Of a stretch of 51,122 nucleotides of DNA, positions 20,146 through 32,748 are shown one piece after another (position 1 is the first letter of the stretch; every line of letters begins with the position of its first letter). Below the pieces are notes generated by a model. That model saw nothing but the letters and a program-made list of their open reading frames with translations. It made no database searches and had not been told where the DNA came from. This DNA is from Phycisphaerales bacterium (GTDB lineage Bacteria; Planctomycetota; Phycisphaerae; Tepidisphaerales; Tepidisphaeraceae), in contig JAQGHM010000221.1 of the NCBI GenBank assembly GCA_028291615.1, positions 1 through 51,122 on the forward strand, given 5' to 3'. Both the position numbers and the translations under genes were made by a program.

Positions 20146-20268
20146 AGAGCTACACGGATGTCCTGCTCGACGCGAGCTCCGCGAATGGGATCGTCGCCGT
20201 GGATGATGGCGGCGCGTGGCCGGGGACCGGTGGCGGGACGATCGTGCTGCCGTTTGGGTGAAGAGGGA

Positions 20269-20380
20269 GAAACCAGAAACCAGAAACCCGAAATCAGAAT
20301 CAAGAAGAAATGCCGAATGCACGATTCGGATTTCGTCATTCGGGCTTGATTCGGATTTCTGGTTTCGGACTTCGGGCTTC
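20269..20380. repeat. Inverted repeat upstream of the E1-like gene
   Basis: Left arm AAACCAGAAACCAGAAACCC and GAAATCAGAATCAAG (20270-20304) pairs with right arm CTTGATTCGGATTTCTGGTT and TCGGACTTCGGGCTTC (20345-20380); an inner stem CCGAATG/CATTCGG is nested inside. It belongs to the same word family as 15119-15157. It could terminate upstream transcription and insulate the operon that follows. Confidence 0.7.
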
Positions 20381-20428
20381 GCCCCGCCTGCCTTGACGTG
20401 GGGCAGAGCGCGAGGCAGAGTAGCGCGC

Positions 20429-21661
20429 GTGTCGGACAAGCCCCTGCGAATTTCGGTTGATGAGACTTCCGCTGAGCAGGAGGATCGTTTTCATCGGTTT
20501 AAGCTGATCTCCTGGTGGGATCAGGAGCGGTTGAAGCGCGCGAAGGTGCTGGTGATCGGGGCGGGGGCGCTGGGGAATGAGCTGCTGAAGAATCTGAGTT
20601 TGCTGGGGGTGGGGAACGTTATTGTTGCGGACATGGATCGGATTGAGAATTCGAATTTGTCGCGGTCGGTGTTGTATCGGGCGGCGGATAATGGGTCGCT
20701 GAAGGCTACGGCGGCGGCGCGGGCGGCTCGGGAGATTTATCCGGATCAGCGGGTGCAGGCGTTCAACGGGAACGTGGTGTACGACCTGGGGCTGGGGGTG
20801 TTTCGATGGGCGGATATAGTGCTGGGGGGGCTGGATAATCGGGAGGCTCGGCTGGCGATCAATCGGGCTTGCTGGCGGCTGAACAAGCCTTGGATTGATG
20901 GGGCGATCGAGGCGATTCAGGGGACGGCGCGGGTGTTTGTGCCGGATGGGGCGGAGCAGGCTGCGCCGTGCTATGAGTGCACGATGTCGGAGACGGATTG
21001 GCGGCTGCTGAATTTAAGGCGGTCGTGCAATTTGTTGACGCGGGCGGAGATGGAGCACGGCAAGACGCCTACGACGCCGACGATTTCTTCGATTATCGCG
21101 GGGGTGCAGACGCAGGAGGCGGTGAAGATCTTGCATGGGATGGCCTCGTTCGCGGGAAAGGGATGGGTGTTTGAGGGGTTGTCTTCGGATTCGTATCAGG
21201 TGGAGTTTCAGCGGAAGGAGGATTGCTATAGCCATGAGCCGCTGGACGAGGTGATCGAATTGGATGCGCGGGCGGATACGCTAACCGTGCGCGAGCTATT
21301 GGGGCGGACGCGGGAGATGCTGGGGCCATCGGCGGAGATCGAGCTGGGGCGGGATATCCTGGAGAAGCTGGTTTGTCCGAAGTGCAAGGGAGAGGAGACG
21401 CTCTTCGCGTCGCTGGGGAAGGTGAGCGCGGAGAAGGCTTGGTGCCCGAAGTGTAAAGATGCCCGGCGGGATGTGCAGACGTTTCACAAGATTCGGGGGC
21501 GGGAGGCGTTTCTGGATCAGACGCTGGCGAGCATCGGCGTGCCGGCGTTTGATATCCTGATCTCGCGGAACCCGGAGCGGGCGGTGGGGTTTGAGTTGAG
21601 CGGGGATGCGGGGGGGGTGTTGGGGGCGGTTTTTCCCGATGAGGGGTTGTCGGTGTTGTAG
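20429..21661 (+). CDS. E1-like ubiquitin-activating (ThiF/UBA-type) enzyme
   Basis: A 410-residue activating enzyme that should adenylate the C-terminus of a ubiquitin-like protein and take it up as a thioester. Residues about 25-240 form the ThiF/MoeB adenylation fold: GAGALGNE (44-51) binds ATP, ADMDRIENSNLSR (67-79) holds the Asp, Asn and Arg that contact ATP, and GLDNREAR (134-141) the Mg-binding Asp136. CxxC at 181/184 (PCYECT) matches the first zinc pair of MoeB/UBA3; Cys200 (RRSCNLL) lies where E1 enzymes keep the catalytic Cys. TPTISSIIAGVQTQEAVKIL (214-235, in part) is the usual crossover helix. The C-terminal part has a possible ubiquitin-fold-like stretch (about 258-312) and CxxC pairs at 316/319 and 339/342. 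GTG 20429 excludes an upstream repeat. First gene of the cluster. Confidence 0.92.
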   Translation: MSDKPLRISVDETSAEQEDRFHRFKLISWWDQERLKRAKVLVIGAGALGNELLKNLSLLGVGNVIVADMDRIENSNLSRSVLYRAADNGSLKATAAARAAREIYPDQRVQAFNGNVVYDLGLGVFRWADIVLGGLDNREARLAINRACWRLNKPWIDGAIEAIQGTARVFVPDGAEQAAPCYECTMSETDWRLLNLRRSCNLLTRAEMEHGKTPTTPTISSIIAGVQTQEAVKILHGMASFAGKGWVFEGLSSDSYQVEFQRKEDCYSHEPLDEVIELDARADTLTVRELLGRTREMLGPSAEIELGRDILEKLVCPKCKGEETLFASLGKVSAEKAWCPKCKDARRDVQTFHKIRGREAFLDQTLASIGVPAFDILISRNPERAVGFELSGDAGGVLGAVFPDEGLSVL

Positions 21662-21759
21662 CCGATAATGGGGTGGGCGTTAAACATCGCGGAACCGCAA
21701 GCGGGATGCGGCGGTAAGTTTCATATGGACAAGGACTTGTGCCCGTAGAACGGTTGATT

Positions 21760-22626
21760 ATGTCTGAAGATGCGGAGAAAGCGGAGAGGGGGGAATCGGA
21801 AGCGGAGGGGGCGGTGCGCGATGTGGGGCAGATCGTGGTGACGGATTGGGAACTGCGGGAGATGCCCAAGGTTTCGGGCGGGGGGCGGGAGACCAAGTTT
21901 CAGGCGGTGGTTCGGCAGTCGGTGTTGAATCAGGTTCACCGGCATGGGAAGTCTTCGGAGGATATTGAGGTTTGCGGGGTGCTGGTGGGGAGCGTGTTTC
22001 ATGACTCGGCGGGGGCTTGGCTGCACGTGCAGCATGCGATCGAGGGGAACCACGCGACGCAGCGGGCGGCGCAGGTGACGTTTACGGCGGAGACCTGGAC
22101 GCACATCCAGTCGATCATGGATCGGGAGTATCCGGAACTGCGGATCCTGGGGTGGTATCACACGCATCCGGGGTTTGGGATTTTCCTGTCGGACATGGAC
22201 GTGTTCATCCAGGAGAACTTCTTCCCCGAGCCGTGGCAGGTGGCGCTGGTTTACGATCCGAAGGCGAAGGAGGAGGGGGTGTTTTTGTGGAAGGGGGGTA
22301 AGCCGGTGCCGGAGGCGTTTTTGCTGGACGCGGACGCGCCGGTGGAAGAGGCGACGGCGATGATTACGGCGGCGCGGGCGGTTTCGGGCGAAAATGCGAA
22401 GGCGGGGGAAATGGTGGGGGAAGTTGCACAATTTGCGGACCGACTTGATGCAATTGAAAAACGGCAGAAGATGATCATGGTCATGCTGGCGGTGATCGGG
22501 TTGATCGCGCTGGCTTGGCCGCTGGTGGTGACGGCGTTTTTGCCGGAGCTATTGCAACAGAAGCAAAGCCACCCGCCGATTAACCTTCCATCGGACGACC
22601 CGACGAGTCGGCCGTTTAAGATCTGA
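21760..22626 (+). CDS. Membrane-anchored JAB/MPN (JAMM) metallopeptidase, deubiquitinase-like
   Basis: A 288-residue protein with a complete JAMM zinc site: Glu70 (IEVCGVLVG) and His134-x-His136-x7-Ser144-x2-Asp147 (YHTHPGFGIFLSDMD). Proteins with this site remove ubiquitin or process ubiquitin-like precursors (Rpn11, AMSH, bacterial JAB). The fold spans about 45-190. A single membrane helix follows at about 238-260 and a short Pro/Ser-rich tail, so the peptidase domain probably faces the cytoplasm while tethered to the membrane. ATG 21760 was chosen because TAGAAC lies 8 bases upstream; GTG 21739, seven codons earlier, remains possible. It lies between the E1 gene (98 bases) and the FHA membrane gene (8 bases). 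Confidence 0.93.
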   Translation: MSEDAEKAERGESEAEGAVRDVGQIVVTDWELREMPKVSGGGRETKFQAVVRQSVLNQVHRHGKSSEDIEVCGVLVGSVFHDSAGAWLHVQHAIEGNHATQRAAQVTFTAETWTHIQSIMDREYPELRILGWYHTHPGFGIFLSDMDVFIQENFFPEPWQVALVYDPKAKEEGVFLWKGGKPVPEAFLLDADAPVEEATAMITAARAVSGENAKAGEMVGEVAQFADRLDAIEKRQKMIMVMLAVIGLIALAWPLVVTAFLPELLQQKQSHPPINLPSDDPTSRPFKI

Positions 22627-22634
22627 CATATCCA

Positions 22635-23918
22635 ATGGTGCGAGAAAAACTGACGGTATCGTGGGAGGATGTGAACAGTCCCGACGTTGACGCCCGGCTT
22701 AGGGAGCAGGAGGCGAAGTCGCGGGAGGAGGCGTTTACGTCGCCGGCGCTGTCGATGAATGCGCATCAGCTTAAGACGCAGCAGCGGACGAGCATCTGGT
22801 ACAACACGGTTTTTGCGATGGCGTTCTTCGGATGCATGGGGGGGCTGCTGGCTTGGGGGGCGGGGGAGTTGATTCAATTGAAGCCGATGGTGCGGACGCA
22901 ATATCTGGCGCAATTGGCGGACGCGCAGGAGAAATGGGAAGCGGTTGAGGCGGTGCAGCGGCGATTTGAGGCGGGGATCATCGATCGCATCAGGGCACAG
23001 GCGGAAGTTAACTTGCTGCAACAGTCGGCGGAGTCGGATGGGAACCCGTACTTCACGATCCTGGCGGATAAGTCGATGAGCCCGGATCAGAAGCGGCAGC
23101 GGATCGAGAAGCAGCATGCGAATTACGATACGAAGGCGTTCATTGCGAAGGTGCTGGCGTATGGGCTCATCGGGATGTTGATTGCGCTATCGTTGTCGGT
23201 GGCCGAGCCGCTGATCGATCACAATCGGCATGGGGCGATGGTGAACGGGGCCGTGGGGGCGATGCTGGGGTTGTTTGGCGGGGTGGTGGTGTCGCTGTTC
23301 GTCGATCGGCTGCACGCGGCGCTGGGAGGGAGCGAGAATGCGGAGCTCAACACGGTGAAGCAGTCGGTGGCGAACGCGATCAAGTATGGGGTAATCGGGT
23401 CGTTCCTGTTGATAGCGCCGGGGGTGCTGATGCGGAATGGGCGGAAGCTGATGGTGGGGTTGGCGGGAGGGTTTGCGGGCGGGTTGATTGGCGGGCTACT
23501 GTTTGCGCCGGTGGCGAAGATGACGGGGAACGCGATGCTGTCGCGGGCGATCGCGACGCTGGCGATCGGACTGATCGCAGGGGCGGCGACGGGGCTGATT
23601 GAGAACGTGGCGAAGGCGGGGTGGCTGAAGGTGATCCAGGGGTTTATCGCGGGGAAGCAGTTCATCTTGTATCGCGCGACGACTTACATTGGGTCTAGTC
23701 CGGAGTGTCATGTTTATTTGTTCAAGGATCCGGCGATCGGGCGGCGGCATGCGGCGGTGCACGTGGTGCCGGGGGGGTTTGACCTGGAAGATCTGCCGCT
23801 GGGCGGGGCGACGTTTGTGAATGGTAAGCCGGTATCGCGGGTGCGGCTGCGGACGGGGGATCAGATTCAGGTGGGGTCTACGGCGTTTACGTTTCAGGAG
23901 AAGGTGAAGGCGGCTTGA
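22635..23918 (+). CDS. Polytopic membrane protein with C-terminal FHA domain
   Basis: A 427-residue protein. A charged cytoplasmic N-terminus (1-50) precedes a helix at about 55-80, a helical extracytoplasmic or cytoplasmic segment (about 85-165), and five or six more Gly/Ala-rich helices (about 170-190, 200-225, 250-268, 272-295, 305-325). The C-terminus (about 343-422) is a forkhead-associated domain: YIGSSPECHVYL, DPAIGRRHAAV (the Ser/Arg-x-x-His core), FVNGKPV and LRTGDQIQVG. FHA domains bind phosphothreonine, so the protein may recruit phosphorylated partners or E1/E2 substrates to the membrane (inference). It starts 8 bases after the JAMM gene. The Gly-rich membrane part is not a family I can name. 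Confidence 0.9.
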   Translation: MVREKLTVSWEDVNSPDVDARLREQEAKSREEAFTSPALSMNAHQLKTQQRTSIWYNTVFAMAFFGCMGGLLAWGAGELIQLKPMVRTQYLAQLADAQEKWEAVEAVQRRFEAGIIDRIRAQAEVNLLQQSAESDGNPYFTILADKSMSPDQKRQRIEKQHANYDTKAFIAKVLAYGLIGMLIALSLSVAEPLIDHNRHGAMVNGAVGAMLGLFGGVVVSLFVDRLHAALGGSENAELNTVKQSVANAIKYGVIGSFLLIAPGVLMRNGRKLMVGLAGGFAGGLIGGLLFAPVAKMTGNAMLSRAIATLAIGLIAGAATGLIENVAKAGWLKVIQGFIAGKQFILYRATTYIGSSPECHVYLFKDPAIGRRHAAVHVVPGGFDLEDLPLGGATFVNGKPVSRVRLRTGDQIQVGSTAFTFQEKVKAA

Positions 23919-23950
23919 GCAGTAGGCGGTAGGCAGTATGCAGTAGGCGG
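23919..23950. repeat. CAGTAGGC-type short tandem words
   Basis: GCAGTAGGCGGTAGGCAGTA followed by TGCAGTAGGCGG: four copies of a GTAGGC-like word between the two FHA genes. Similar runs occur at 14172-14200 and 47678-47716. Confidence 0.75.
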
Positions 23951-24004
23951 ATGAAGGGGGAGTTGCCAAGGGGATTGGTCGCGCTGACAATCCTTCGGAA
24001 GCTG

Positions 24005-25147
24005 ATGGCGATTTTGATTGTTAACAATTTGGAGCAGCCGCAGGGGCTGGTGCTGGGGGAGCGGGTGCTGATCGGGCGCCGGCCGTTCAACACGATCATG
24101 GTGCCGGACCCGGAGGTGTCGCGCATTCATGCCTGGATCGGGCGGCGGGATGGGCGGTACTTGCTGTTTGATGCTGGGTCGCGGTCGGGAACTCGGTTGA
24201 ACGATCGGACGGTGGGATCGAGCCCGCGGGCGCTGGCGGATGGGGATGAGATTCGGATCGGGCCGGCGACGATTCTTTTCATGGAGGCGGACGAGTTGCC
24301 GGTGGATGTGGCGGAGATCGAGGCTGCGCCGGTGCCGCCGGCGGCGGACCCGTATGATGGTGGGATTTACTTCGATTGCGCATGTGGGGGGCCGATGTGG
24401 GTGACGGCGAATCTGGCGGGGCAGATGGGGAAGTGCCGGTATTGCGGGGAGCGGCTGGTGGTGCCGCACATGTCGGGGAAGATGGCGCGGCCGTTGGCGC
24501 CTGCGGCGGTCATCTTGACGGCGCCGGTGCGTCGGCCACCGGAGATGGCGGCTGGGCGTGCGCCAGGAATTGCGCCGGGAATGCCGGCGGCGCGGGGGGC
24601 GGAGGTTGCTGCGCCGGTGGAGGCGGAGGAGTCGCCGGAGGCGCCTTGTTCGATCTGTCAAACGCCGATCGTGGCGGGGGAGGAGCGGACGACTTGTCCT
24701 TCGTGTCATCTCACGTTTCACGCGGGGTGCTGGCAGGAGAATTATGGGTGCAGCGCTTATGGGTGTGACCAGGTGAATGTGCTTGCGCCGGCGGCGGAGC
24801 CTGCGGCGGCGGTTGCGGGCCCGATGACGACTTCGGTTATGCCGATGCCTACGCCGGTTGGGGAAGCGGCGGTGACTGTGGATATGGAGGGGCGGCCGCC
24901 ATTCCCGTGGGAGCCGGTGTTGCTGGCGTTGTCGTTTGTGGCGTCGGCGCTGGGGGCGCTGTTGTTTGGGATTCCGTCGGGGGTGATGCTGGTTTGCGTG
25001 CTGGCGTTTCTGGTGGTGGGTCGGCCGCGGCGGCGCGGACTGGTGATCGTGGCGCTGCTGGTGACGCTGGCGGGCGCGGCGGCGGGGTATGCGACGTCGA
25101 TGTTCTGGTGGAAGGGGCAGCGGGTTTGGGAGGTCTTCCTGAAATGA
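24005..25147 (+). CDS. FHA - zinc ribbon - RING finger - membrane protein, candidate E3-like factor
   Basis: A 380-residue protein. Residues about 1-95 form an FHA domain (VLIGRRPFNTI, DPEVSRIHAWI, GSRSGTRLNDR, LADGDEIRIG). A zinc ribbon follows (Cys125, Cys127, Cys144, Cys147). After an Ala/Pro-rich linker comes a RING-type finger at 215-254: Cys215-x2-Cys218, Cys231-x2-Cys234, His239-x2-Cys242-Trp, Cys249, Cys254, resembling the prokaryotic RING families noted near E1, E2 and JAB genes. Three hydrophobic segments (about 303-340 and 345-367) anchor it in the membrane. RING domains bring charged E2 to substrates, so this is the candidate E3, with FHA as the substrate or scaffold reader (inference). 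ATG 24005 is used; the frame continues upstream to 23951. The stop overlaps the E2 start. Confidence 0.88.
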   Translation: MAILIVNNLEQPQGLVLGERVLIGRRPFNTIMVPDPEVSRIHAWIGRRDGRYLLFDAGSRSGTRLNDRTVGSSPRALADGDEIRIGPATILFMEADELPVDVAEIEAAPVPPAADPYDGGIYFDCACGGPMWVTANLAGQMGKCRYCGERLVVPHMSGKMARPLAPAAVILTAPVRRPPEMAAGRAPGIAPGMPAARGAEVAAPVEAEESPEAPCSICQTPIVAGEERTTCPSCHLTFHAGCWQENYGCSAYGCDQVNVLAPAAEPAAAVAGPMTTSVMPMPTPVGEAAVTVDMEGRPPFPWEPVLLALSFVASALGALLFGIPSGVMLVCVLAFLVVGRPRRRGLVIVALLVTLAGAAAGYATSMFWWKGQRVWEVFLK

Positions 25148-25857
25148 TCGAGTTCAACTGCCCCAACTGCGGGAAGCGGTTCAAGGTGCCCGACGAGCTG
25201 GCGGGGCGCGCGGCGAAGTGCAAGGCTTGCGCGGCGCTGCTGCGGGTGCCGGCGTTGGGGGCAGTGTCGTCGGCGGTGGTGGGGAATGGCTCGGAGAATG
25301 CTCCGGCCGTGCCGGCGTCGGTTGGGAGTGGGGCGAGCGTCGTGGCGAGCGCGCCTGCGCCTGCTCGGGCGGCGGCTTCGCGGATTCCGATGCGGACGCG
25401 GCGGTTGATGGCGGATGCGCAGCATGTCGGGGAAGCGTTTAAGGATTCATCGATGATCCGGGTGCTGGAGACGGAGGGGAATCCGCCGGATCTTTATCGG
25501 ATCGAGTATCACGTCGAGAGCCTGGAGCCGACGGAGAATCCAGAGCGGCCTGCGCCGCGTAATGTGCATCAGGTGGAGATACAGCTAACGGGCGAATATC
25601 CGCGCGTGTCGCCGCAGTGCAAGATGCTGACGCCGGTTTATCATCCGAACATCGATCCGAGTCACATCTGCGTGGGGGACCACTGGGCGGCGGGGGAGCG
25701 GCTGGTGGATCTGGTGGTGCGGATCGGGGAGATGCTGGCGTACCAGGCTTACAACATTAAGAGCCCGCTGGATGCGCATGCGGCGATGTGGGCGGATTTG
25801 AATGGGGAGCGGCTGCCGACGGATTCGAGGACGATCCGGCCGGCGGAAATGCAATAA
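25144..25857 (+). CDS. E2-like ubiquitin-conjugating enzyme with N-terminal zinc ribbon
   Basis: A 237-residue protein. Residues 3-35 are a zinc ribbon (FNCPNCGKRFKVPDELAG, then KCKAC; Cys6, 9, 26, 29). An Ala/Ser/Val-rich linker follows (about 36-80). Residues about 85-225 are a UBC fold: VHQVEIQLTGEYPRVSP holds the central strands and the Tyr-Pro turn, YHPNI (166-170) is the HPN motif, and Cys176 (HICVGDHW) is the expected thioester Cys. LVDLVVRIGEMLAYQAYNIK and SPLDAHAAMWA match the helix after the active site and the P-L-x-x-x-A motif. It should take the modifier from the E1 and pass it on. The start codon overlaps the RING gene's stop (ATGA), so the two are translationally coupled. Last gene of the cluster. 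Confidence 0.93.
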   Translation: MIEFNCPNCGKRFKVPDELAGRAAKCKACAALLRVPALGAVSSAVVGNGSENAPAVPASVGSGASVVASAPAPARAAASRIPMRTRRLMADAQHVGEAFKDSSMIRVLETEGNPPDLYRIEYHVESLEPTENPERPAPRNVHQVEIQLTGEYPRVSPQCKMLTPVYHPNIDPSHICVGDHWAAGERLVDLVVRIGEMLAYQAYNIKSPLDAHAAMWADLNGERLPTDSRTIRPAEMQ

Positions 25858-30180: not shown

Positions 30181-32439
30181 TCATTTCCGTCGGAGGTCGA
30201 GGAATGAGCGGGCGGGGATCATCGCGGTGGTTTTGTTGCCGGCGGTGTTGATGGTGGATTGCTGGTCGGGGGCGATGGGTTGGCCTGCGCCGCCGTTGTA
30301 TTTGGCGCGGTAGCCGCTGTAGCTGCCGTAGTCGCCGGCGCGGTCGCGGGCTCTTGGGACGTCGTTGACGACTACGCCGAGGATCGCTGCGCCGACGCTT
30401 TGCAGGGCTCGGCGGGCGTGCATGGCGGCTTTGCGGGTGCTGGTTTGGGCGCGGAGGACCAGGATGGTCACGCTGCACATGGCGGCGAGGATGCGGGCGT
30501 CGGCGACGGCCATGACGGCGGGTGAATCGACCACGACGTGCTCGTAGCGGACGCTGAGCTCTTCGAGGACTTCGTTAAAGCTCTGGCTGTTGAGGATCTC
30601 GGACGGGTTGCTTGGCTGCGGGCCGGCGGGAAGGATGTCGAGACCGGCGATGCCGGTGCTTTGGATGGTCTTGTCGAGCGGCTCGTGACCTGCCAGGACG
30701 GTGGAGAGGCCGATGCCGGGGCGCGATTCGAAGATGCGATGTTGGACGGGGCGGCGGAAGTCGGCATCGACGAGGAGCACGCGCTTGCCGGTCTGGGCCA
30801 TGGCGATGGCGAGATTGCTGGCGAAGGTGCTCTTGCCGTCGCCGGGGGCGGGGCTGGTGACGAGGATGGTGCGGCTTTCGCGGTCGGGGGTGCCGAAGAA
30901 TACGGCGGTGCGGATGGTGCGGTAGGTCTCGGCGACGTCGCTGGCGGGTTCGAAGTCAACCTTGCGTCCCTGGGCCATCGGGTTGGGCGGGCCGGACATG
31001 TGGGGCACCGAGCCGAGGAGCGGGACGCCCATGGTCTCGATGATTTCTTCGCTCGAGCGCAGGCCCTGGTCGGTCCAGTCGCGCACCAGCGCGGCGAAGC
31101 AGCCAAGGACCAGGCCGATGATCAGGCCCTGCATGAGCGTCGCGTAACGATCAGGTTTGATCGGGATTCCGGGCAGGTTCGGCTCGTCGAAGACCTGCAC
31201 GGTGGGGACACCGACGTTTTCGGTGGCGTTGAGGTCGATGATCTGGAGGTCGGCCTTTTCGACCATGCTGGCGAGGCGTTTGGCGTCGCCGTCGATCTGC
31301 TCGTATTCGGCTGCCTTGTCGTTGTGGGCCATGGCGGCGCGGTTCTGCGTCTCATAGGACTGCTGAAGCTCGGCCTCGCGGTTTTTGGCGGCGTTGACCT
31401 TCTGCTCCATGGCGAGCAGATAGGTTTCGGCCTGGCTACGGTCCATTTCGCCGATTCGCGCTCTCAATGTCGCCACGGTTGCCTGCGAGGCGCGGACCGA
31501 CGGGTGACTGGGCAGGTAGCGGCGGGCGAGCTCGTCGGATTGCGCTTCCATCGCCAGGAGCTGGCTGCGCAGGGCTTGCTCGTTGGAATCGGCGCCGATG
31601 GAGATGCCGGTGGAGCGGAGGTACTCGACGAAGTTGTGAAGTTGGGCGGGATCGCCAAGCTTGGCCTTGGCGGATTCGTAGACGCTTTTGGCGTTGACGG
31701 TTTCTACATGGGCGTCGGTCAGCGCGTTTTGCAGGCTGACGAGCTTTTGGACGGTGAGGTTGTTCTTGTCGCCGCCGGTGAAGGAGACGGCGTGGTTGGC
31801 CTTTTTGAATTCGAGCAGTTCCTTCTGCTTTTGCTCGAGTGTCAATTGGGTCTTGTTCCGCCATTTTTCGAGTTCGGCGACACGGGAGCGCTTTTCTTTG
31901 GAGTGGTAGTTGGCGTAGGCATCGACGACGGTCTTGAGGATCGTCTGGGCTTCCTTGGGATAGGCGGATTCGAACGACACGGTGATGATGTCGTTGTCCT
32001 TGCCGACGGTGGCGCTTAGGTTTTCCTTTAGCTTGGTCCAGCGCGAGCCATCGTCGAAGGTTTTGAGGTCGGCGAGTTCGGGCGAGGCGAGGACGCTGGC
32101 GAGGATGGAGGCGGATTTGATCAGCTCGCACTGAGTGTGGAGGTTGCCCTGGCTTGCTCCGCCGTTTGAGGCAGTGCCGACGTCGAGGGGCGCTTTGGAG
32201 CCGCCGGTCTGGACGAAGAGGCGGGCGTCGCTGCGGAAGATCTGGGTGGAGAAGAGGTATTTAACGCCCGCTGCGAGCACGCAGACGAGGAGGACGGCGA
32301 CGAGGATGCCCTTGCGGCGCCAGATCATCATGAGCGGATTGATGCCGGGCGCTCCCACCTCGGGGACGGCCATCATCTGCATCTGCGGCTGCACCGGATA
32401 CGACAGGGCGTGTGAATTATCGACCTTCTCGATGTCCAT
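30181..32439 (-). CDS. Wzc-type polysaccharide co-polymerase / BY tyrosine kinase
   Basis: A 752-residue inner-membrane protein controlling chain length in exopolysaccharide synthesis. A Wzz domain begins with a helix at about 38-60 (KGILVAVLLVCVLAAGVKYL), followed by a long periplasmic coiled coil (about 150-430) and a second helix near 455-475. The cytoplasmic kinase has Walker A (PAPGDGKSTFASNLA), Walker A' (RVLLVDADFRRP) and Walker B (VVVDSPAVMAVADA), all typical of bacterial tyrosine kinases. The C-terminus has the Tyr cluster that is autophosphorylated (DYGSYSGYRAKY). ATG 32439 is used rather than the upstream 32538. It sits opposite the PEP-CTERM gene, consistent with the known pairing of exosortase systems and polysaccharide export, but other export genes are not here. 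Confidence 0.94.
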   Translation of the reverse strand: MDIEKVDNSHALSYPVQPQMQMMAVPEVGAPGINPLMMIWRRKGILVAVLLVCVLAAGVKYLFSTQIFRSDARLFVQTGGSKAPLDVGTASNGGASQGNLHTQCELIKSASILASVLASPELADLKTFDDGSRWTKLKENLSATVGKDNDIITVSFESAYPKEAQTILKTVVDAYANYHSKEKRSRVAELEKWRNKTQLTLEQKQKELLEFKKANHAVSFTGGDKNNLTVQKLVSLQNALTDAHVETVNAKSVYESAKAKLGDPAQLHNFVEYLRSTGISIGADSNEQALRSQLLAMEAQSDELARRYLPSHPSVRASQATVATLRARIGEMDRSQAETYLLAMEQKVNAAKNREAELQQSYETQNRAAMAHNDKAAEYEQIDGDAKRLASMVEKADLQIIDLNATENVGVPTVQVFDEPNLPGIPIKPDRYATLMQGLIIGLVLGCFAALVRDWTDQGLRSSEEIIETMGVPLLGSVPHMSGPPNPMAQGRKVDFEPASDVAETYRTIRTAVFFGTPDRESRTILVTSPAPGDGKSTFASNLAIAMAQTGKRVLLVDADFRRPVQHRIFESRPGIGLSTVLAGHEPLDKTIQSTGIAGLDILPAGPQPSNPSEILNSQSFNEVLEELSVRYEHVVVDSPAVMAVADARILAAMCSVTILVLRAQTSTRKAAMHARRALQSVGAAILGVVVNDVPRARDRAGDYGSYSGYRAKYNGGAGQPIAPDQQSTINTAGNKTTAMIPARSFLDLRRK

Positions 32440-32748
32440 CGAACGTCTCCCGCGACCGCGATTCCGTCCGTGGAAGGTTACCCGTGGATTTTTCGTGCTA
32501 CGCGCTCGGCGATCGCGCGAATCCGTTCGCGCACGCAATTACACCCCACGGAATGACTTGTACCCCGCCCGCACAATTGACACAAACAATTACAGCTTGC
32601 GCCGCCGGTCCAATAATCCATCAAATCCGCGCCGCTTACACGAAGCGCACCCACGCGTCGTCTGGGGTGAAGCTATCTCTTCAGTTGTAAGATTGTCAAT
32701 GCGTGATTTTCCTTAGTCGGTGACGGGCGGGTAAGCTTTGCATCCAAC
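32440..32748. other. Intergenic region between divergent kinase and debranching enzyme genes
   Basis: 309 bases with no open frame I would call. It is AT-richer than its surroundings. It contains a hairpin CGCGCGAA-TCCG-TTCGCGC (about 32514-32532), a TTGACA (32577-32582) with no matching -10 box, and the repeated word CAATTACA/CAATTGACA. It must hold both promoters. Confidence 0.5.

Follow-up and report, generated by a model that had tools for sequence, protein, structure and literature searches.

The window analysed here is the stretch of 51,122 nucleotides from position 1 of contig JAQGHM010000221.1, which belongs to a metagenome-assembled genome (MAG, GCA_028291615.1) of a planctomycete of the family Tepidisphaeraceae. 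Our subject is a run of five same-strand genes at 20429-25857, encoding an E1-like adenylating enzyme, a JAMM protease, a polytopic membrane protein with an FHA domain (FHAm), a protein that combines an FHA domain with a RING-like finger (the FHA-RING protein) and an E2 of the ubiquitin-conjugating type. An earlier note, made from the letters of the window alone, had described these genes as a ubiquitin-like conjugation cluster. We recovered all five open reading frames (ORFs) on the + strand exactly where it had placed them, with Pfam matches above cut-off for ThiF, JAB, both FHA domains and UQ_con (Table 1), and the genes for the FHA-RING protein and the E2 share an ATGA overlap at 25144-25147. 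The residues that the note had singled out (Cys200 of the E1, the JAMM site, the finger ligands, and the HPN motif and Cys176 of the E2) are invariant in the relatives aligned. The set is present and ordered as described, but it is not self-sufficient, and its modifier had been overlooked: a gene for a ubiquitin-like protein (Ubl) lies before E1 in relatives, and on another contig, C227, in this genome.

Table 1. Features of the window, with the profile match or other evidence for each.
Feature	Position	Strand	Evidence
E1-like adenylating enzyme, ThiF family, GTG start	20429-21661	+	Pfam ThiF 2.1e-51
JAMM/JAB metalloprotease, one C-terminal membrane helix (residues 239-257)	21760-22626	+	Pfam JAB 5.2e-13
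FHAm: polytopic membrane protein, 6 predicted helices, C-terminal FHA	22635-23918	+	Pfam FHA 4.5e-12
FHA-RING protein, candidate E3: N-terminal FHA, zinc-ribbon-like cysteines, C4HC3 RING-like finger (residues 215-254), two C-terminal membrane helices	24005-25147	+	Pfam FHA 5.8e-15
E2 of ubiquitin-conjugating type: N-terminal zinc ribbon, UBC domain, HPN (167-169), Cys176	25144-25857	+	Pfam UQ_con 3.3e-9
Dispersed palindromic repeat, not part of the pathway	20262-20385	none	hairpin z -6.0; 24 genome matches, itself included
Wzz/Wzc-like exopolysaccharide ATPase; a lead, not a part	30181-32538	-	Wzz 3.4e-7, AAA_31 4.5e-10

Twenty stretches from relatives were extracted for neighbourhood comparison, and clustering of their flanks placed a small gene directly before E1 in 13 of them; several of the others end short of that point. 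The product belongs to the YukD family, with Pfam E-values of 1.4e-13 (L033), 3.2e-11 and 2.4e-7 in three relatives, and in 33 of 39 database loci carrying it the gene lies at most 222 bases before E1. Up to their glycine the Ubls measure 84-97 residues. We compared 44 Ubls, 43 of them different (39 from the fetched database loci and 5 from the genome set, two of this genome included), and all 44 reach the end PEITAG, where 18 stop and 26 continue for at least 2 residues. In the database the Ubl profile matches no fewer than 5,624 proteins (E<=1e-3); the best 120 of these carry PExTAG without exception, 34 ending there and 86 having tails of 1-57 residues. The named proteins among the 120 are called YukD-like, EsaB/YukD or hypothetical, a putative modifier hidden in a family named for a secretion component. 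The tails are dissimilar by eye, save for a few that are alike or resemble translated repeats, some of them similar in appearance to the palindrome of the window. Because conservation ends with a single glycine and the tails beyond it vary freely, we read the Ubl as a pro-modifier trimmed by a protease, and we infer that the JAMM protein is that protease. A Ubl with a conserved C-terminal glycine is encoded with, or co-occurs with, the enzymes of the cluster. Two other matches to the Ubl (G298:C174:7771-8028 and G357:C153:4457-4717) lie within frames of 901 and 502 aa, and are either fusions or merely long frames.

Upstream of E1 in the window no Ubl gene was detected (best tblastn E 0.027, inside the E1 gene; best hmmsearch --max E 7). 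As no ORF of the window before E1 matched, the whole genome was searched, and two Ubl genes were found off the window, on contigs C227 and C67. The Ubl of C227 falls within a clade of nine Ubls of type A (loci with at least 280 in our E2 scoring) with support of 96/96, and the tetranucleotide correlation of its contig to the window is 0.979; no other genes of the system were found on this 9.3-kb contig. On C67 the Ubl gene is followed, at the contig end, by genes for an E1 and a JAB protein, and the Ubl groups with those of type B (94/85). A further contig, C386, starts inside an FHA domain. Next on it come a zinc/membrane protein, a protein matching Prok-RING_1 (1.2e-9), a Trypsin_2 protein (L050:2151-3458) that also carries DUF4190 and a sub-threshold Prok-RING_1 match (2.3e-5), and an E2. 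C67 and C386 may be a single second cluster split by the assembly. In the window the place that the Ubl gene takes in relatives is occupied by a 124-base palindrome, 43 bases before the E1 start, which may explain the displaced modifier.

The distribution of the system was followed first through its E2, which was searched in 298 genomes of the class with E<1e-40 as the threshold. Twenty-three were positive: in the same family 19 of 26 genomes, this one counted, and outside it 4 of 272, with an internal stop in one of the four. Within the 20 extracted stretches E1, JAB, FHA, RING and E2 keep their order wherever they are covered, with L039 lacking FHAm. The E2 profile also yielded 79 database loci, fetched from the best 80 of 116 confirmed candidates, which belong to Planctomycetota and to records labelled Riflebacteria, Sumerlaeota, Victivallales, Holophagaceae, Acidobacteria, Armatimonadota, Zipacnadia, Bacillota and a proteobacterium. 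Gene order was counted with our own profiles (score >20 bits) in the 44 loci holding both E1 and E2, the other 35, with no E1 in the stretch, being left out. The exact order UBL-E1-JAB-FHAm-RING-E2 occurs in 35 of the 44, in line with the conservation of gene order that the earlier note had proposed as a check; JAB is present in all 44, RING in 42, and FHAm and UBL in 39 each. Because these loci were selected by E2, they are silent on variants that lack it. A shared neighbourhood of E1, E2, JAB, RING and Ubl is a feature of relatives, the window being without its Ubl nearby, and one of the records with the exact order is that of Lacipirellula limnantheis I41 (L128). At L060:3056-9836, JAB, FHAm, RING and E2 are present, and neither E1 nor Ubl was found between these and a Wzc-like gene.

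Co-occurrence was analysed in 28 genomes, namely the rest of the family (25 genomes) together with G204, G143 and G088 (G057 was left out). A Ubl is present in 20 of 21 E2-positive genomes versus none of 7 E2-negative ones (one-sided Fisher test, 7e-6, kinship ignored). Among 392 genomes drawn from the phylum, 29 have a Ubl match at 1e-10, some of these weak and perhaps other YukD relatives; for the 32 Ubl matches in this draw, ends were read only where already known. The set is uncommon in the phylum and frequent in this family. According to the accessible part of a 2024 survey, bacterial E2 homologues are limited to single ones in Nitrospinota, Riflebacteria, Vulcanimicrobiota and Aminicenantes (PMC11354881), a distribution that does not match the planctomycete spread found here. 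The proteasome family PF00227 was not found in our own MAG, which is 87% complete, and it occurs in 21 of the 28 genomes with the system present or absent alike; since the family also covers HslV, a proteasome link is uninformative.

In the E1, Cys200 and the zinc-type residues C181, C184, C266 and H269 are invariant in 16 of 16 aligned rows, the C-terminal region holds two further CxxC pairs, and hydropathy detected no membrane helices in the window protein or in 15 relatives. By analogy to UBA5 we take Cys200 to be the thioester cysteine, and the conserved residues point to an adenylating E1 with this candidate acceptor. Against PDB chains the E1 matched UBA7 at 3e-26 (95 bits with two domains summed, 65 bits for the best stretch), bacterial ThiF at 1e-18 (70 bits) and MoeB at 1e-17, and scored far lower against Cap2 (7e-7, 32 bits, versus best stretches of 65-70 bits for the UBA-type and ThiF/MoeB chains). 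The idea of a specially eukaryote-like E1 was dropped, because the whole-chain lead of UBA7 sums two domains and by best stretch UBA7 and ThiF are alike. The JAMM active site (E70/H134/H136/S144/D147) is complete and invariant in 15 of 15 aligned rows. Its profile has RPN11 as best PDB match (1e-19) and also matches the Rpn11-like entries 6fju/6fjv (1e-16), presumably a Caldiarchaeum protein. A C-terminal helix is predicted by hydropathy in the window protein and in 13 of 15 relatives. The JAMM protein is a likely maturase and deconjugase.

For the E2, the UQ_con match of the window protein reaches 36.9 bits (cut-off 27), and the same domain was found in 33 of 33 aligned E2 proteins; H167-P168-N169 and C176 are invariant in 20 of 20 aligned rows. 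The E2 profile has UBE2C as best PDB match (6e-10), with HPN and the catalytic cysteine in register. The predicted structure (pLDDT 86.9) gave E2-25K as best Foldseek match (3e-8), and all 50 matches listed are entries with an E2, with TM-scores by target mostly of 0.5-0.7 and rmsd of about 5-7. Profiles and predicted structure thus support the UBC fold that had been proposed for this gene, and the model is that of an E2 with HPN and a cysteine in the catalytic position. A single weak helix call (residues 28-46) in the window E2 is absent in 20 relatives, and the Prok-E2_B profile was uninformative, as it matched nothing anywhere, controls included. In three other loci (L055:8399-10942, L056:8847-11798 and L057:11136-13958), frames of 848-984 residues open with a domain of E2 type in which HPN is present and the catalytic cysteine is lacking, and a long region comes after it; these are possible UEV-like partners.

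The two FHA domains differ in their pockets. In FHA domains, conserved Arg, Ser and His residues form the phosphothreonine pocket. In the FHA-RING protein Gly-Arg is kept in 11 of 12 rows and Ser-x-x-His in 12 of 12 (three relatives' rows without FHA in the ORF are omitted), and in FHAm the phospho-binding Arg is gone in 15 of 15 rows and the Ser in 13 of 15. From the residues kept and replaced it follows that the first domain can probably read phosphothreonine and the second probably cannot. Hydropathy gives 5-6 helices for FHAm in the window and in 14 of 14 relatives, and two or three for the FHA-RING protein in the window and in 12 of 14 relatives. The membrane-bound, phospho-regulated modification pathway that had been suggested for these genes keeps its ubiquitin-like and membrane parts, and for its phospho-part the residues give support in the FHA-RING protein only.

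The finger of that protein has its ligands (C215, C218, C231, C234, H239, C242, C249 and C254) in C4HC3 order, which held without exception in alignments of 15 and of 19 rows; none of these rows has the eukaryotic C3HC4 order. The RING assignment of the earlier note holds in part: the finger matches Prok-RING_1 (3.5e-4), and the window copy stays below the cut-off of 29.1 bits, with 20.9 bits for the whole protein and 26.4 for the segment. A paralogue in the same genome scores 38.4 bits. At E<=0.01 the family was matched by 16 of 19 whole aligned proteins and by 32 of 32 finger segments, a count that is partly circular because the segments were chosen by ligand pattern from 87. A fold search with a model of the whole protein listed FHA chains. 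Against the PDB the best matches of the finger profile, at 2e-5, were to EL5, which is a RING-H2 chain, and to a chain of PHD type, followed by Arkadia, and this mixture, together with the sub-threshold window copy, would suit a C1- or PHD-like binding module, with an E2 that conjugates without an E3. We consider this improbable, given the Prok-RING_1 matches among relatives, the position of the finger gene next to the E2 gene (overlapping it in the window), and the accessible part of the 2024 survey, which describes the C4HC3 order for prokaryotic RING domains (PMC11354881). From its sequence the FHA-RING protein is a likely E3.

Taken with the Ubl of C227, the cluster would thus encode a phospho-gated, membrane-anchored ubiquitin-like conjugation pathway, to which we assign a probability of about 0.72. 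In this pathway the JAMM protease would cut the Ubl precursor after its glycine, the E1 would adenylate the Ubl and take it on Cys200, and the E2 would receive it on Cys176. The FHA domain would hold a substrate, likely one carrying phosphothreonine, to which the RING-like finger would then bring the Ubl-loaded E2, and the JAMM protease would later remove the tag. FHAm, its phospho-binding residues lost, would act as a scaffold. The site of action would be the inner membrane, because the JAMM protein, the candidate E3 and the scaffold all carry predicted membrane helices. A wider proposal, of a bacterial equivalent to ubiquitin ligases that sit in membranes and are gated by phosphorylation, is tentative, and we hold it to be rather less probable than its negation: a YukD-family modifier, matured by JAMM at PEITAG, would be put on phosphorylated envelope proteins by the membrane FHA-RING ligase, and a sister branch would hand tagged proteins to membrane RING-finger/trypsin-like proteases, as a bacterial analogue of endoplasmic reticulum-associated quality control.

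Several points weigh against the proposed pathway. The Ubl and the cluster lie on different contigs here and in G109, and G098 is E2-positive with no Ubl found. The mature Ubl would end in a single glycine (AG) and not in GG, and since the Ubl profile was made from PEITAG-ending proteins, weaker relatives with other ends may exist. The window finger does not reach the Prok-RING_1 cut-off and has a likeness to C1 and PHD fingers as well, and an intact FHA pocket says nothing of its actual ligand. Finally, according to the accessible part of one report, YukD of B. subtilis is unable to be conjugated (PMC5845737).

Anti-phage defence of the Bil/CBASS kind, in which phage or defence proteins would be tagged, has in its favour that known bacterial UBL cascades appear primarily defensive in the accessible part of a 2025 review (PMC12687455), and that one PADLOC E1-E2 model matches our E1 (58 bits, 2e-16) and the JAB model matches at 2e-6. 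The same library (2023) gave no match for the FHA-RING protein, the E2 or the Ubl, and the accessible part of another paper states that protection by Bub operons has not been shown (PMC13373217). Pfam assigned ten proteins flanking the cluster to a prepilin peptidase, a shikimate kinase, the amino-acid-kinase family, ribosome recycling factor, a dockerin-bearing protein, a Wzc-like protein, a debranching enzyme, DUF5640 and HSP90, with one left without a match. Several are housekeeping proteins, and none of the ten has a strong PADLOC match (HSP90 matched TmtA at 7e-7 and shikimate kinase matched VakA at 4e-4; no CD-NTase model was searched). The E2 is, moreover, spread through most of the family, and most same-family Ubls cluster together in the tree, except L083 and L048. 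We therefore regard a defence function as unlikely; the family-wide spread and the non-defence flanks suggest that the conjugation pathway has a role in the cell's own envelope.

Slightly less probable still is that the pathway serves exopolysaccharide assembly by tagging a neighbouring Wzc-like ATPase or its partners. Of the 17 A-type loci with more than 1.1 kb upstream, 9 have a divergent Wzc-like gene adjoining the Ubl, a sugar-transferase-like gene (recognised by eye) lies farther out in six stretches, and the window keeps its Wzc-like gene 4.3 kb past the E2 though the Ubl gene is gone there. On the other hand, such a gene was not seen at the other 8 of the 17 A-type loci, nor at B-type loci save for one weak partial match at L112, and because it is not seen at many loci the neighbourhood may be mere shared synteny.

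That the Ubl is a non-covalent part of type VII secretion or a sulphur carrier, with E1 and E2 serving something else, is very improbable: its Pfam family is named for a component of that machinery, and our own genome holds a single WXG100 match exactly at the family cut-off (L137; G000:C89:23894-24067), but the Ubl tracks the system and WXG100 does not (14 of 21 genomes with it and 5 of 7 without; no FtsK/EssC search was made), on which ground the secretion role was rejected, while the PEITAG end with variable tails fits processing, and a sulphur carrier has no need for an E2 with HPN and cysteine.

Two further kinds of gene recur around the Ubl clusters. Trypsin_2 proteases lie in or beside them in 31 of the 79 loci. 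In many of them a Prok-RING_1-type finger and DUF4190 membrane segments stand in front, which joins a finger of ligase type to a protease, and others, such as L062 and L122, have no finger. A DUF2752 protein with a CPGCGLTRSF-type motif occurs in 23 of the 79 loci (e.g. L119:2263-2772), encoded downstream of the E2 on the same strand in 18 cases and upstream on the other strand in L116 and L118.

If the proposed pathway is real, bacteria would have a complete E1-E2-E3-deconjugase route that reads phosphothreonine outside phage defence. With the set present in L. limnantheis I41, one could then test directly in which bacteria, and for what reason, ubiquitination of the cell's own proteins takes place, and since this gene order is conserved in relatives belonging to several bacterial groups, cultured ones among them are likely to permit a test of the idea. 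The earlier note knew of no experimental work on this arrangement, and our literature search, with most subscription papers beyond its reach, likewise found none. Within the accessible literature, the 2011 paper discussed below not being compared, the apparently new elements are the FHA-RING membrane ligase, the anchored JAMM, the Ubl pro-protein end, the phyletic match and the displaced modifier.

Among known systems, EsaB/YukD of type VII secretion belongs to the same Pfam family as our Ubl, whose gene is linked here to E1, E2 and JAMM genes. Bil and Bub systems have Ubl, E1, E2 and JAB in common with it; we know of no RING or FHA protein in either, and the BilD model scores only 31 bits on this E1. 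Burroughs, Iyer and Aravind reportedly described prokaryotic E1-E2-JAB-RING operons in 2011 and suggested conjugation of YukD-like Ubls. Those operons share with the present set the E1, E2, JAB, RING-type finger and YukD-like Ubl, and the accessible part of a 2014 review names Planctomycetes among the bacteria for which related operons were predicted in 2011 (PMC4197634). The accessible part of a 2020 survey describes further bacterial Ubl systems of the tri-ligase kind that include a RING-type E3, and places a related one in Planctomycetes as well (PMC7159879). An FHA domain is combined with a RING in eukaryotic CHFR and RNF8 and in yeast Dma1 (PMC9499959, accessible part). The likeness lies in an FHA domain with an intact pocket, found here in a bacterial protein, which adds zinc-ribbon-like cysteines and two membrane helices and has a C4HC3 finger instead of C3HC4; the pairing is probably convergent. 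In Caldiarchaeum the modifier is of the ubiquitin type and not YukD. Its operon unites Ub, E1, E2, RING and an Rpn11-like protein, the same five functions in one cluster, and the set described in the accessible part of the 2014 review is without an FHA protein (PMC4197634). By analogy, the membrane tagging of proteins predicted here would work much as ubiquitin does in our own cells.

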